From Deltaproteobacteria bacterium (lineage in GTDB: Bacteria > Desulfobacterota > DSM-4660 > Desulfatiglandales > B25-G16), in contig JAFDHR010000198.1 in assembly GCA_019308645.1 (NCBI GenBank), positions 1-6,434 on the forward strand: 6,434 bases of DNA, read 5' to 3'. How positions within the stretch are numbered: position 1 is the first letter of the stretch; each line of letters starts with the position of its first letter. Both the position numbers and the translations under genes were made by a program. Positions 18 to 6,406 of this stretch are shown here, piece by piece. A model generated the notes under the pieces. That model worked only from the letters and a program-made list of their open reading frames with translations, did no database searches and was not told where the DNA came from.

Positions 18-1760
18 ATGACCAAAATTAGTATAAAAAATGTGCTGCTCGCAGGACTTTCAGGTCTCATGTTAACTGCCAGCTTTGCCCCGATCAATTT
101 GGACTGGATAGCATGGATATCCCTCATACCTCTCCTCATTAGCCTTGAGGATAAATCCCTATCAGATGCATTTAAGATAGGGCTTTTTGCTGGTCTTCTC
201 CACTACCTAACCCTTATTTATTGGGTAGTTAATGTACTTTCCCGTTACGGCAATATTAGCCTTATCTTAAGCCTTGTAGCATTCTTGCTTCTTTCGTTCT
301 ATCTTGCTCTCTATATAGCCTTTTTTGCACTTATTGTGACTAATTTTAAAAACAATAGGCTATCACCATTTTGGGGAGCGAGCATCTGGGTCGCACTTGA
401 ATACGCAAAATCTTATATTATGACCGGTCTCCCTTGGTGCCTTTTAGGGTACAGCCAATATTCCAGGTTGCCACTAATACAGATATCAGATATTGCCGGT
501 GTCTATGGCATATCATTTGTTATCGTTCTGGTAAATTTTTCCATATATAATGTAGCTTCTCTCATGATTAAGAAAAAAATATCGGCTTACACTATAGAGC
601 GCAAGTCAGAAGTCACGAGGGATGATCATAACAAACACAACGGACAACGGAAAACGGACCCGCCTGCCGACCGTCTGGCAGGGCCTGAGCCCGCCCGGCA
701 TTCGCCTGAGGCGAAGCCGATGGCGGACGGGCGAGAGCGACCCGCCCTCCTCGCATTGCGAAGCATTGCAGGCAGGTGGCAGGCAGGCAACAGGCATACC
801 TTCCAACGTGTCAGGATAGAAACAATTTTCACCTTTTTCCTTGTAGGATGTATACTTGTATATGGCTACAGTCGTTTGAAAGAAAAAGGAGATAATAACT
901 CAAAAGGCAGGGAATTAAGGGCAGTGATTGTCCAGGGGAATATCGATCAGTCTTTAAAATGGGACTCAGATTTTCAAGAAGAGACATTGTCTATTTATAA
1001 GAAGCTATCCTTAGAATCAGCAGATTTTAAACCTCAGCTCATCATTTGGCCTGAAACTGCGCTTCCATGTTTTTTTCAAGACACATCTCATCTTTCTGAG
1101 GAAATATTCGAGGTTGCTAAAATAACCAATGCAAATATTCTGTTTGGTTCTCCTGCATATGTAAAAGATAAGGACAGCATCTTCTATTACAACAGGGCAT
1201 ATATGATATCTAAAAGCAGGGTATTTGATTATTATGACAAGGTTCATCTTGTCCCCTTTGGTGAATATGTTCCACTGAAAAAATACATCCCATTTGTACA
1301 TCGCTTAGTTACAGCGGCAGGAGACTTCTCCACTGGTAAGAAAGTAAAACCCATACATTCTCCAGGTCTTAAAATAGGGGCATTAATCTGTTTTGAGACT
1401 ATCTTTCCTGATATCTCTCGAAAATTCGCTGCCCAAGGAGCTGAGCTTTTAGTAAACCTCACCAATGACGCATGGTTTGGCCGTACAAGTGCCCCTTATC
1501 AACACCTGAGCATGGCTGTTTTTAGGTGCGTAGAAAATGGTTTACCTATGGCACGGGCTGCAAACACTGGGATAAGCGCCTTTATTCTTGCAAATGGAAA
1601 GATAGTAGATAAAAGCGAGCTTTTTGCGAGGGAAATCTTGCAAAAGAAGATAAAATTAACACAGAAAAAAACATTCTATTCACAATTAGGTAATATTTTT
1701 GCTATACTATTAACAATCGCAACAATTATTAAATTTCTTTGGATATTAAAGCGTCGTTAA
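18..1760 (+). CDS. lnt: Apolipoprotein N-acyltransferase, carrying an in-frame repeat insertion
   Basis: Lnt is the inner-membrane enzyme that transfers an acyl chain from a phospholipid to the amino group of the diacylglyceryl-cysteine of lipoproteins, the last maturation step. The protein has 580 residues. Hydrophobic helices fill residues 8-185, another spans about 267-285, and a last one about 556-576. The periplasmic nitrilase-like domain lies between the last two. The catalytic triad is visible: E346 (in WPETALP), K408 (in YYDKVH) and C458 (in LICFE). E416 (FGEYVP) and E460 match other residues important in E. coli Lnt, but the tyrosine after the catalytic cysteine is Phe459 here. Residues 195-268 are a foreign-looking Arg/Pro/Gly-rich block; without them the length is 506, close to E. 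coli (512). The ATG has no clear Shine-Dalgarno. It directly follows TAA (15-17) and also overlaps a TGA in another frame (ATGA, 18-21), so coupling to an upstream gene outside the window is likely. prfB follows 91 bp downstream. Confidence 0.96.
   Translation: MTKISIKNVLLAGLSGLMLTASFAPINLDWIAWISLIPLLISLEDKSLSDAFKIGLFAGLLHYLTLIYWVVNVLSRYGNISLILSLVAFLLLSFYLALYIAFFALIVTNFKNNRLSPFWGASIWVALEYAKSYIMTGLPWCLLGYSQYSRLPLIQISDIAGVYGISFVIVLVNFSIYNVASLMIKKKISAYTIERKSEVTRDDHNKHNGQRKTDPPADRLAGPEPARHSPEAKPMADGRERPALLALRSIAGRWQAGNRHTFQRVRIETIFTFFLVGCILVYGYSRLKEKGDNNSKGRELRAVIVQGNIDQSLKWDSDFQEETLSIYKKLSLESADFKPQLIIWPETALPCFFQDTSHLSEEIFEVAKITNANILFGSPAYVKDKDSIFYYNRAYMISKSRVFDYYDKVHLVPFGEYVPLKKYIPFVHRLVTAAGDFSTGKKVKPIHSPGLKIGALICFETIFPDISRKFAAQGAELLVNLTNDAWFGRTSAPYQHLSMAVFRCVENGLPMARAANTGISAFILANGKIVDKSELFAREILQKKIKLTQKKTFYSQLGNIFAILLTIATIIKFLWILKRR
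603..657. repeat. Two runs of 7-bp tandem repeats at the left end of the lnt insert
   Basis: AAGTCAG/AAGTCAC occurs as two adjacent copies at 603-616. ACAACGG, ACAACGG and AAAACGG run as three adjacent copies at 637-657. Both have a 7-bp period and mark the left part of the inserted block. Confidence 0.7.
663..682. repeat. Hairpin CCTGCC-N8-GGCAGG in the lnt insert
   Basis: CCTGCC (663-668) and GGCAGG (677-682) form a perfect 6-bp inverted repeat with an 8-nt loop. The same arms and loop length recur at 4894-4913 in the lapB-amidase spacer, where the loop also keeps the central CCG. Confidence 0.7.
692..733. repeat. Nested inverted repeat in the lnt insert
   Basis: The outer arms are CGCCCG (692-697) and CGGGCG (728-733). 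The inner arms are TTCGCC (701-706) and GGCGAA (710-715) around a TGA loop. The imperfect stretch between arms makes this a bulged cruciform or RNA stem. It lies wholly inside the lnt reading frame. Confidence 0.6.
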
Positions 1761-4700: not shown

Positions 4701-4785
4701 ATAAGAACCTTATAATTTAACGTATAGGAAATTCTATCCTGCTGTAGGTGAGAAAATATGCCATTCACCTGCAATGATGGCTCGC

Positions 4786-4814
4786 CCTCCCCGTCCCGAG
4801 ACGGGATCGGGAGG
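4786..4814. repeat. 13-bp-arm hairpin
   Basis: CCTCCCCGTCCCG (4786-4798) and CGGGATCGGGAGG (4802-4814) pair over 13 positions with two mismatches around an AGA loop. Flanking TCGC/GCGA can extend the stem with a bulge. It is the strongest stem in the spacer. It could slow RNA decay or polymerase between lapB and the amidase, but lacks a terminator T-run. Confidence 0.75.
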
Positions 4815-4892
4815 CGCGACTTCCTTGGCAAATATTGCAATTTCTATATTATTTATAATTCCTGGCAATACAGCCTAAGCATTGCATGCCAG

Positions 4893-4917
4893 GCCTGCCC
4901 GCCGGACGGCAGGCGGG
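4893..4917. repeat. Interleaved inverted repeats with two alternative stems
   Basis: GCCTGCC (4893-4899) pairs with GGCAGGC (4908-4914). The overlapping CCCGCC (4898-4903) pairs with GGCGGG (4912-4917). Both loops are 8 nt and the two stems exclude each other. The first matches the hairpin at 663-682 inside lnt. Confidence 0.65.
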
Positions 4918-4930
4918 TCTGGGCCAGGGA
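4916..4930 (+). repeat. 15-mer GGTCTGGGCCAGGGA, copy 1
   Basis: This sequence is identical to 6305-6319 in the same orientation. It directly adjoins the interleaved hairpin at 4893-4917 and appears to be the right edge of a dispersed element. Confidence 0.7.
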
Positions 4931-4968: not shown

Positions 4969-6178
4969 TTAAGAAGACATATTACCATTAGACACGTTAG
5001 GAAAAGATGACTTTATGATATCTATAGAATCCCATTTCAAGCACTGTGGGCACTTCCACACGAGTTCATCTGGTATGTATCCACAATTGCTGCATTGAAA
5101 CTTGAAATAAGGTAATATTACAAGAAGATCTTTGTATGCCTCTAAGGCCTCTTCATTTCTGCCTTCCTTAAAAAGTATCTCCCCTAAAAATTTTCTCGCA
5201 TTTAAAAATGACGGGACCGATTTAATAGCCTGATTCAGTTCATCCAAAGCAGAGTCTGTCTCCCCCTTATTATAGAGATACTTGGCTAAGGCTAAACTTA
5301 TAACGCTATCAGAATTTTTTCGGGCAGACCCGCGTAAAAAATCCTCTACGCCCTTTAGGTTCTTCATCGTCGAATAGGTCTTTTCTAACCTTTGATAGAC
5401 CAGAAAAGTAAACTTAGGTGCCACATCAACTACCCTCTTCCATGTAGATAAAGCTTTTTGATGGTCCTGCTGACTAAAATAGAGATCACCCAAATGAAGA
5501 TAGGTATCAACGCATTTATCAAAGATAGAGATAGCCTTTTTATAGGATTTCTCAGCCCTTGCTCTATCACCATTTCTTTCCTGTACCTTCCCAAGCTCTG
5601 TTTTTTGGTGGGCAAGTATATGCCGATGATCACCCTTTACGAGTTTTGAAATAGACTCTCTCGTTTTAAAGGCCTTTTCCCAATCGTACATATCCTCATA
5701 AATTCGTTCGGCCTGCTCAAGGGCTTCTATATTGTTTGGATCATCCTCAAGAACCTCCTGAAATGCCGATATCGCACGATTTAAAAATCCACCCTTCCTG
5801 TAATCTAGTCCCAGATCAAAGATTGCTCTCAACCTTACCTCTTTGTCCAGATTAGGTCTTAAAATTATTCCCTGCCGTATCCTGATAGCCCTCTCTATAT
5901 CCCCCTTAGATCTATAAAGATGGCCCAAAGCGACATAGGTCTCGATAGTATCTGAGTTAATCTTAACCGACTTTGTGAACTGTTCGATAGCCTGATCTGG
6001 CTCATTGGAAAGTATGTGCTGAATGCCCTGAAAGAAGGCCTTATCTCCCCTATCCAGTTTTTTTCTAAGCTTTTCAGCATGTCTCTATAAGGAGACCACA
6101 TACAAAGGCAATGATTAACCAGGCACCAAATCTAATATCAAGATTGCTAAAAAATAAATTTTTGATTCCTTCCCACAT
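4969..6178 (-). CDS. lapB: LapB (YciM)-like TPR protein with apparent N-terminal frameshift
   Basis: LapB is a membrane-anchored, cytoplasm-facing TPR protein that in E. coli brings LpxC to the FtsH protease and so limits LPS synthesis. The long frame from 6084 down to 4969 gives 371 residues of tandem TPRs. It includes ALGHLYRSKGDIERAIRI, close to the E. coli LapB segment LGNLFRSRGEVDRAIRI. It ends in a rubredoxin-like knuckle, CSNC near 5090 and CPQC near 5045. The frame's first possible start (TTG 5928) falls inside the second TPR and would lose the anchor. In another frame, ATG 6178 begins 34 residues with a membrane helix (about 18-31, GAWLIIAFVCGLL) exactly where LapB carries its anchor, then stops at TGA 6074. 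Joining them needs a +1 shift or two restored bases and gives about 402-403 residues (E. coli 389). It may be a true mutation, recoding or a sequence error. lapA is not visible. Confidence 0.85.
6074..6087 (-). other. lapB: Frame-change site in lapB
   Basis: The anchor frame ends at TGA (6076-6074). The TPR frame is closed upstream by TAG (6087-6085). The change must therefore occur within these bases, which read TAGAGACATGCTGA on the coding strand. The tract AGAGA is a short dinucleotide repeat. One more GA unit would give Leu-Ile-Glu-Arg-His-Ala-Glu-Lys with no stop. The A7 run at 6064-6058 lies beyond the stop and cannot be the cause. Confidence 0.75.
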
Positions 6179-6189
6179 ATAGAACTTAG

Positions 6190-6205: not shown

Positions 6206-6304
6206 AACTTTTTTGACAGGCCCGCCCTGCGACTTGCTTGGAATAAGCTATTCTCGCTGTAATATTTCAGGAGTTTAGTTTTTGGAACTTTTGCTTATAA
6301 ATCA

Positions 6305-6319
6305 GGTCTGGGCCAGGGA
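6305..6319 (+). repeat. 15-mer GGTCTGGGCCAGGGA, copy 2
   Basis: An exact copy of 4916-4930, here without the adjoining hairpin, followed by TTAACTGGATTTACATGATT. It suggests a truncated relative of the spacer element. Confidence 0.7.
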
Positions 6320-6346
6320 TTAACTGGATTTACATGATTTTTTATT

Positions 6347-6373
6347 TATCCTGACTATCCTGTCTATCCTGTC
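6347..6373 (+). repeat. Three tandem 9-bp repeats (TATCCTGTC)
   Basis: TATCCTGAC (6347-6355), TATCCTGTC (6356-6364) and TATCCTGTC (6365-6373) are contiguous. Similar TCCTGTC-rich tracts are common in intergenic DNA of several environmental Gram-negative lineages, so I treat this as a dispersed intergenic repeat. Confidence 0.75.
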
Positions 6374-6406
6374 TAAAAAATGGAATTTCCGATATATTAA
6401 ATTAGC

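Follow-up and report, generated by a model that had tools for sequence, protein, structure and literature searches.

The window analyzed here, a stretch of 6,434 nucleotides from a Desulfobacterota genome, carries lnt together with prfB, an AmiC-like amidase gene and a LapB-like gene (Table 1). The lnt frame (18-1760) is open throughout, and its 580-residue product is identified as Lnt by its LNT_N and CN_hydrolase domains, by the Lnt equivalog score and by its fold. Columns E346, K408 and C458, which we take to be the Lnt catalytic triad, are invariant in 39 as well as in 100 aligned sequences. The original prediction of an uninterrupted frame with all catalytic residues in place, made from the letters alone, was thus borne out.

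Table 1. Features of the window discussed in the text.
Feature	Position	Strand	Remarks
lnt, apolipoprotein N-acyltransferase, 580 aa, with insert	18..1760	+	ORF list; TIGR00546 336 bits; PF20154, PF00795
5' part of older loop layer, residues ~193-210, including the AACAAACACAACGGACA stretch	594..646	+	common to G006, G007 and G001; no sharp limit towards the short-loop class
GC-rich insert, 150 bp, 50 codons, 70% GC	647..796	+	missing at the site in G006, G007 and G001; ends uncertain by a few bases
Hairpin module M1 (CCTGCC ... GGCAGG) of the dispersed repeat	657..690	.	
Hairpin module M2 (contains GCCCGGCATTCGCCTGAGGCGAAGCCGATGGC), strongest fold	683..733	.	
Module M3 (TCGCATTGCGAAGCATTGC...), fold of the copy in the window not in excess	737..792	.	
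3' side of loop, leading into the next membrane helix; outside the GC-rich insert	797..820	+	
Further stretch between the amidase and LapB-like ORFs	4778..4929	.	matches loci from related genomes
Module M1, second copy, inverted, between the amidase and LapB-like ORFs	4890..4919	-	

The AlphaFold model obtained with 100 aligned sequences (pLDDT 86, pTM 0.87) keeps the Lnt fold, and the solved structures closest to it are the Lnt proteins of P. aeruginosa and E. coli; a model based on a 39-row alignment (pLDDT 44) was set aside. The long loop under study lies between residue ~180 and the nitrilase domain; helices 157-206 and 241-293 flank it, and mean pLDDT by block is 45-64 over residues 201-240 and 74-75 over residues 241-260. 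Much of the insert is thus modeled with low confidence, as a loop joining the final two helices ahead of the nitrilase domain, in agreement with its predicted place between two membrane helices. By the known topology of the enzyme, this loop presumably faces the cytoplasm, away from the periplasmic active site, so it is plausible that Lnt could tolerate an extra loop here. A 50-residue insertion could also be harmful, and the insert might mark a gene that is decaying on its way to loss. We regard this as very unlikely, because the frame is full, the catalytic columns are invariant and the predicted fold is confident; moreover, 14 relatives with loops of 71-106 residues retain the rest of Lnt.

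The insertion had originally been described as a single element of 222 bp bounded by ATAGA at both edges (594-598 and 816-820) and contributing residues 195-268. However, the DNA of three relatives, G006, G007 and G001, aligns to the window on both sides of a 150-bp gap corresponding to positions 647-796, and the outer parts of 594-820 are present in their loop. The 222 bp are therefore made up of an older layer, a loop of about 24 residues (roughly 72 bp) common to the three relatives, and a GC-rich insertion of 150 bp; residues 195-268 are not one acquisition. The GC-rich hairpin block stands as 150 bp at 70% GC, in a window whose GC content is 39% outside the insert, but its extent of 222 bp does not. 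Alignment with orthologs is similarly divided: a short homologous loop is present in close orthologs, but the long part is missing in many. Judged from these alignments, the lnt insertion is real, though it consists of layers. The ATAGA edges are not insertion marks, as the relatives carry other letters there; we also considered the pair as a target duplication and rejected this, since it is not conserved in the relatives. No clean target-site duplication was seen by eye at 646/797.

The ends of the GC-rich block can pair (CCTGCC with GGCAGG), and folding potential is concentrated in part of the insert. When the 227 bases of 594-820 were folded as RNA, a z-score of -2.25 was obtained, with 6 of 200 shuffled sequences folding as well. 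Folded as DNA, the stretch 655-796 has a z-score of -2.83 (1 of 200 shuffles as good) and 688-734 one of -3.54 (0 of 200); the fold of 657-690 is weak (z -1.37), and 738-790 has no excess of DNA fold at all (z +0.65, 145 of 200 shuffles as good). Matches to the block elsewhere correspond to block positions 66-97, 90-140 and 146-195, and to a heptamer stretch at 29-75. These modules are combined differently in different places, which makes the insert a mosaic. Strong hairpin potential in part of the insert could recall a sequence that never reaches the working protein, being removed as an intron or intein or skipped by ribosome bypass. At 150 bp, however, the insert falls well below the size of inteins and self-splicing introns. 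An Rfam search of the window returned no match, and the open frame makes removal needless, so that we consider removal extremely improbable. We also examined whether the repeat might have a stop-free design, the insert being open in five of six frames where 2.5 are expected. Over 59 copies, however, the mean number of open frames is 4.75 versus 4.37, and such a design is not claimed.

Among 18 family genomes, 15 contain pieces of the block (best E-value 2.7e-29), as do 5 of 67 further genomes in the rest of the order at an E-value of 1e-4; up to 40 candidates per genome were considered in the family and up to 10 in the rest of the order. Among the matches listed, the best show 86-87% identity over about 105 bp, or 98% over 59 bp. 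Discarding matched pieces shorter than 24 bp, we counted, again among the matches listed, 122 nonredundant copies or pieces of at least 24 bp in the loci examined, which cover part of those matches. Of these, 94 touch no stop-to-stop frame of at least 150 aa, 25 lie wholly within such a frame and 3 partly so; the frames were taken without gene calling and some are surely spurious. The expectation that the block would have other copies in its own genome is answered within the 6.4-kb window by the piece at 4890-4919, and the other copies found are in the genomes of relatives. Another stretch of the window outside the main ORFs, 6216-6399, matches several related loci at 71-83%. When the older layer was used as query, the only matches besides Lnt genes were of 22-29 bp, and for this layer a repeat origin is therefore only suggested, by L273 and L144.

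Copies of the modules are also found in frame in other genes. Eleven copies among the matches listed lie inside frames of at least 150 aa and are flanked there by no fewer than 40 aa in either direction. Four of them are in Lnt, three of these being the older layer only, and one (L184) is in a frame without Pfam match. The remaining hosts are nrdD, an amidohydrolase gene, a vanZ-like ORF whose VanZ score is under the Pfam cut-off, truB (at its N-terminus), flhF and lpxK. An open frame was required when seeking genic copies: in-frame copies are the only kind visible to this count, and in-frame placement is not in itself a statistical result. Across the 18 genomes, the site is filled in 2 of 16 orthologs of nrdD (a fragment, L267, being left out), in 3 of 16 of lpxK, in 4 of 15 at one site of the amidohydrolase gene, in 2 of 16 truB loci and, for flhF, fully in one of nine and in a shorter, partial form in another. 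In these counts, one filled site per gene is established by DNA identity to the modules and the others by protein alignment, with similar or diverged residues. The truB gene of G007 (L335) has the DNA stretch ACAACGGAAAACGGACCCGCC in common with the window lnt insert. The truB frames of G008 and G007 (L334 and L335) contain MNTTN followed by repeat-coded residues, and extensions at the truB start could be partly untranslated.

The empty site in relatives, the dispersal of the repeat in the family and the presence of its modules in other genes uphold the original idea of a dispersed repeat carried in frame as an extra loop. We conclude that 647-796 is very probably a mosaic copy of a dispersed palindromic repeat, which entered lnt without breaking its frame and which the protein presumably tolerates as a loop.

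The protein family gives a further view of the loop. Out of 7997 candidates scored in a protein search, 7946 were relatives; within the best 120 of these 7946, near relatives vary in length at exactly the loop site, and the nearest named records are from Desulfobacteraceae, Desulfobacterales, Deltaproteobacteria and one Pseudomonadota MAG. We compared 74 sequences in a tree, namely 53 of P0001-P0054, 9 of P0056-P0085, the window and 11 genome sequences, some genome rows duplicating P rows; the set excludes the apparently chimeric P0036 as well as the greater part of P0055-P0120. Between two landmarks, the loop measures 32-35 residues in 29 of the 74 sequences (the short class), 44-58 residues and mostly of HNK type in 14, 65 residues in 11, and 71-106 residues in 15, including the window and P0001; the last 5 have a different insertion (67). 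These five classes were defined on protein only, by loop length, with a motif used additionally for the 33-residue type; P0034 (44 residues) is thus placed in the HNK class by length and lacks the motif. As DNA, a GC-rich insert within lnt is known only from the window.

In the tree, the window falls near G006, on weakly supported nodes (0.19 to 0.78); the flanks of the window loop (KKKISAYTI ... HTFQRV) are more like those of the P0003 type than those of G006. Parsimony assigns 10 changes to the long-loop state, where 500 shuffles gave 14.0 on average and 10 at the least; the state is widely scattered, node support is low in places, and gains are indistinguishable from losses, so that we claim no number of insertions. 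P0040, with a short loop, falls inside a longer-loop group, while P0048, with a longer loop, lies deep in the tree. At the protein level, comparison of RKAGNEHTF in P0011 to RKLKTDPPASPEREQWRAGNGHTF in P0008 suggests what looks like a deletion scar. A sixteen-residue direct duplication (ILVYGYSRLKEKKDAT) adjoins the loop in P0055.

Since repeats do cause misassembly, we also considered an assembly or binning artefact, in which a repeat-driven false join would have created the insert inside lnt. One Lnt cluster, P0036, may illustrate this kind of error: its C-terminal part after NLTNDAWFG is unlike the family, and by its look it is a chimeric assembly. However, P0001, a protein 99% identical to that of the window, is encoded on a separate 2473-bp contig, from the same or another sample, and carries this insert at an identical position with small differences; in-frame loops are also present at that point in several relatives. 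The insert is therefore hardly an artefact, and we give this explanation almost no weight.

In the G002 branch, the same Lnt loop contains an unrelated repeat, present as a 33-residue in-frame insertion (L105:1385-1500). The DNA of this element matches 12 of the 18 genomes. Its inverted repeats, ACCCTGTTAGAAAG and CTTTCTAACAGGGT, are 14 bp long in L332, the best of the copies, and 12 bp long in lnt; their spacing is nearly constant, 89-93 bp in the nine loci checked. With terminal inverted repeats and dispersed copies, the G002 Lnt-loop element is MITE-like. Among 13 other copies, L325 is the only one in a frame of at least 120 aa (124 aa) with more than 60 bp on each side. An Rfam search of five loci, four MITE-like ones outside lnt and the G002 lnt locus, returned tRNA only.

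This other occupant bears on whether the loop could simply be an ordinary, functional and fast-evolving part of Lnt, its likeness to repeats being incidental or the repeats being themselves derived from the loop. Many relatives do have 44-94 residues between the same landmarks where the short class has 32-35, and HNK residues recur in the older layer. However, the DNA of the insert matches L131, L132 and L143, which lie outside ORFs of at least 120 aa, with 86-98% identity over 59-106 bp; modules also occur in unrelated genes, and an unrelated repeat occupies the same loop in another branch. We therefore judge an ordinary loop to be unlikely.

If 647-796 is indeed a mosaic copy of a GC-rich palindromic, REP/BIME-like repeat dispersed in this Desulfobacterota family, the following history may be proposed. 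The repeat would have entered lnt where an older short loop with ACGGACA-type heptamers had already added length. As the insert keeps the frame and contains no stop, it should be translated, probably adding 50 partly disordered residues to the loop that connects the final two helices ahead of the nitrilase domain. Selection would remove copies breaking frame or fold, so that most survivors would lie outside genes and a small number would persist in frame where a loop tolerates them. That relatives have related loops of differing size is suggestive of later turnover.

Two candidate routes of movement are considered: an IS200-like Y1 transposase could copy the repeat, or heptamer tracts could undergo gene conversion with one another. 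A Y1 transposase (PF01797), the type of enzyme (RAYT) with which GTAG/CGTC REPs are associated, is present in 16 of the 18 genomes. Location of the transposase beside the repeats was tried as a link and found weak, only one of 20 Y1 loci examined having a repeat piece nearby. An ACGGACA-type heptamer or AACAAAC is found at most 50 bp upstream of 9 of 72 distinct ACCCRCCYGCC sites, including that of the window, versus 41 of 1440 random 50-mers. Modules thus lie just downstream of these motifs in some sites, which makes recombination between heptamer tracts possible. A wider reading, which we hold to be quite possible but short of probable, is that the Lnt loop is a landing pad: heptamers, the GC-rich mosaic and the MITE would each have been added in different branches, tracts seeding the next insertion and deletions leaving in-frame scars. 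If so, an essential enzyme would be gaining new protein sequence from dispersed repeats, time after time at a single spot.

The phenomenon is known from the literature on RPEs and intragenic REPs, which already describes in-frame repeats. RPEs are about 105-150 bp long and fused in frame in many Rickettsia genes, and one RPE-bearing product, guanylate kinase, is reported to be translated and active (PMC10969869, PMC2229807). The present repeats resemble them in being hairpin-forming, dispersed and found both in frame in unrelated conserved genes and in intergenic regions (PMC10969869, PMC2229807). Here too, several unrelated genes have in-frame insertions with empty sites in relatives, and the palindromic unit is of 150 bp, with the fold excess noted above for 655-796 (z -2.83) although M3 alone has none. 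However, the host is outside Rickettsia, in another phylum, and the present repeats are GC-rich modules, mosaic and mostly outside long open frames. We liken them to RPEs by description, not by sequence: they appear to work like RPEs and are not filed as such.

REPs are found inside ORFs of many species, with truB a target in several; clusters of them can code for 43-82 residues, and in recB of two Xanthomonas species about the same site is occupied by different REPs (PMC3733652). By the same source, truB is a target common to RPEs and the present repeats, and intragenic REPs share with the latter short palindromes, single or clustered, mainly intergenic with some in ORFs (PMC3733652). GTAG/CGTC REPs are defined there as palindromes of 20-40 bp with GTAG or CGTC at one end (PMC3733652). 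By eye, no such tag is found at the module ends, CGTC being in the M1 loop, and the unit ends are not sharp. A further difference is that nesting in an older Lnt loop is visible here through living relatives. ERIC, QMITE and other MITEs are small non-autonomous repeats that can extend ORFs (PMC5896051, PMC2229807). The G002 lnt element, with its inverted repeats, resembles these small ORF-extending repeats, whereas the window GC-rich block has pairable ends and no visible target duplication, and is not classed with MITEs.

Relative to the open-licence literature searched, novelty appears to lie in the lineage, in the element families and in the finding that different repeats have repeatedly occupied a single Lnt loop. 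Among the papers listed there for nested in-frame MITEs, no title concerns bacteria, and among those listed for RPEs none carries the term Lnt. Rickettsia, which is an intracellular lineage, offers the best-known examples of conserved genes with in-frame repeats. In this uncultured Desulfobacterota family, sequence comparison points to repeat DNA that is apparently being turned into extra protein loops, and its empty, partly filled and filled sites may represent natural stages of a repeat becoming protein. As several genes have matched empty orthologs, the cost and tolerance of such loops are measurable. Annotators of such genomes should be aware that a variable Pro/Arg-rich loop can be a translated repeat.

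Other parts of the window deserve brief mention. In the region 5928-6180 (minus strand), the profile match of the LapB-like ORF starts only at position ~75, and immediately upstream a different frame offers a start resembling a membrane helix; the gene thus looks frameshifted or misassembled there. In prfB, positions 1921-1927 read CTTTGAC, presumably the known frameshift site of release factor 2, with identical letters in nine aligned relatives. The lnt-prfB spacer (1761-1849) holds a repeated TTTAGGCAC motif and appears shorter in G006 and G018. It is 93% identical to the G017 spacer over 89 bp, despite Lnt proteins that are only about 75% identical between the window and G017.
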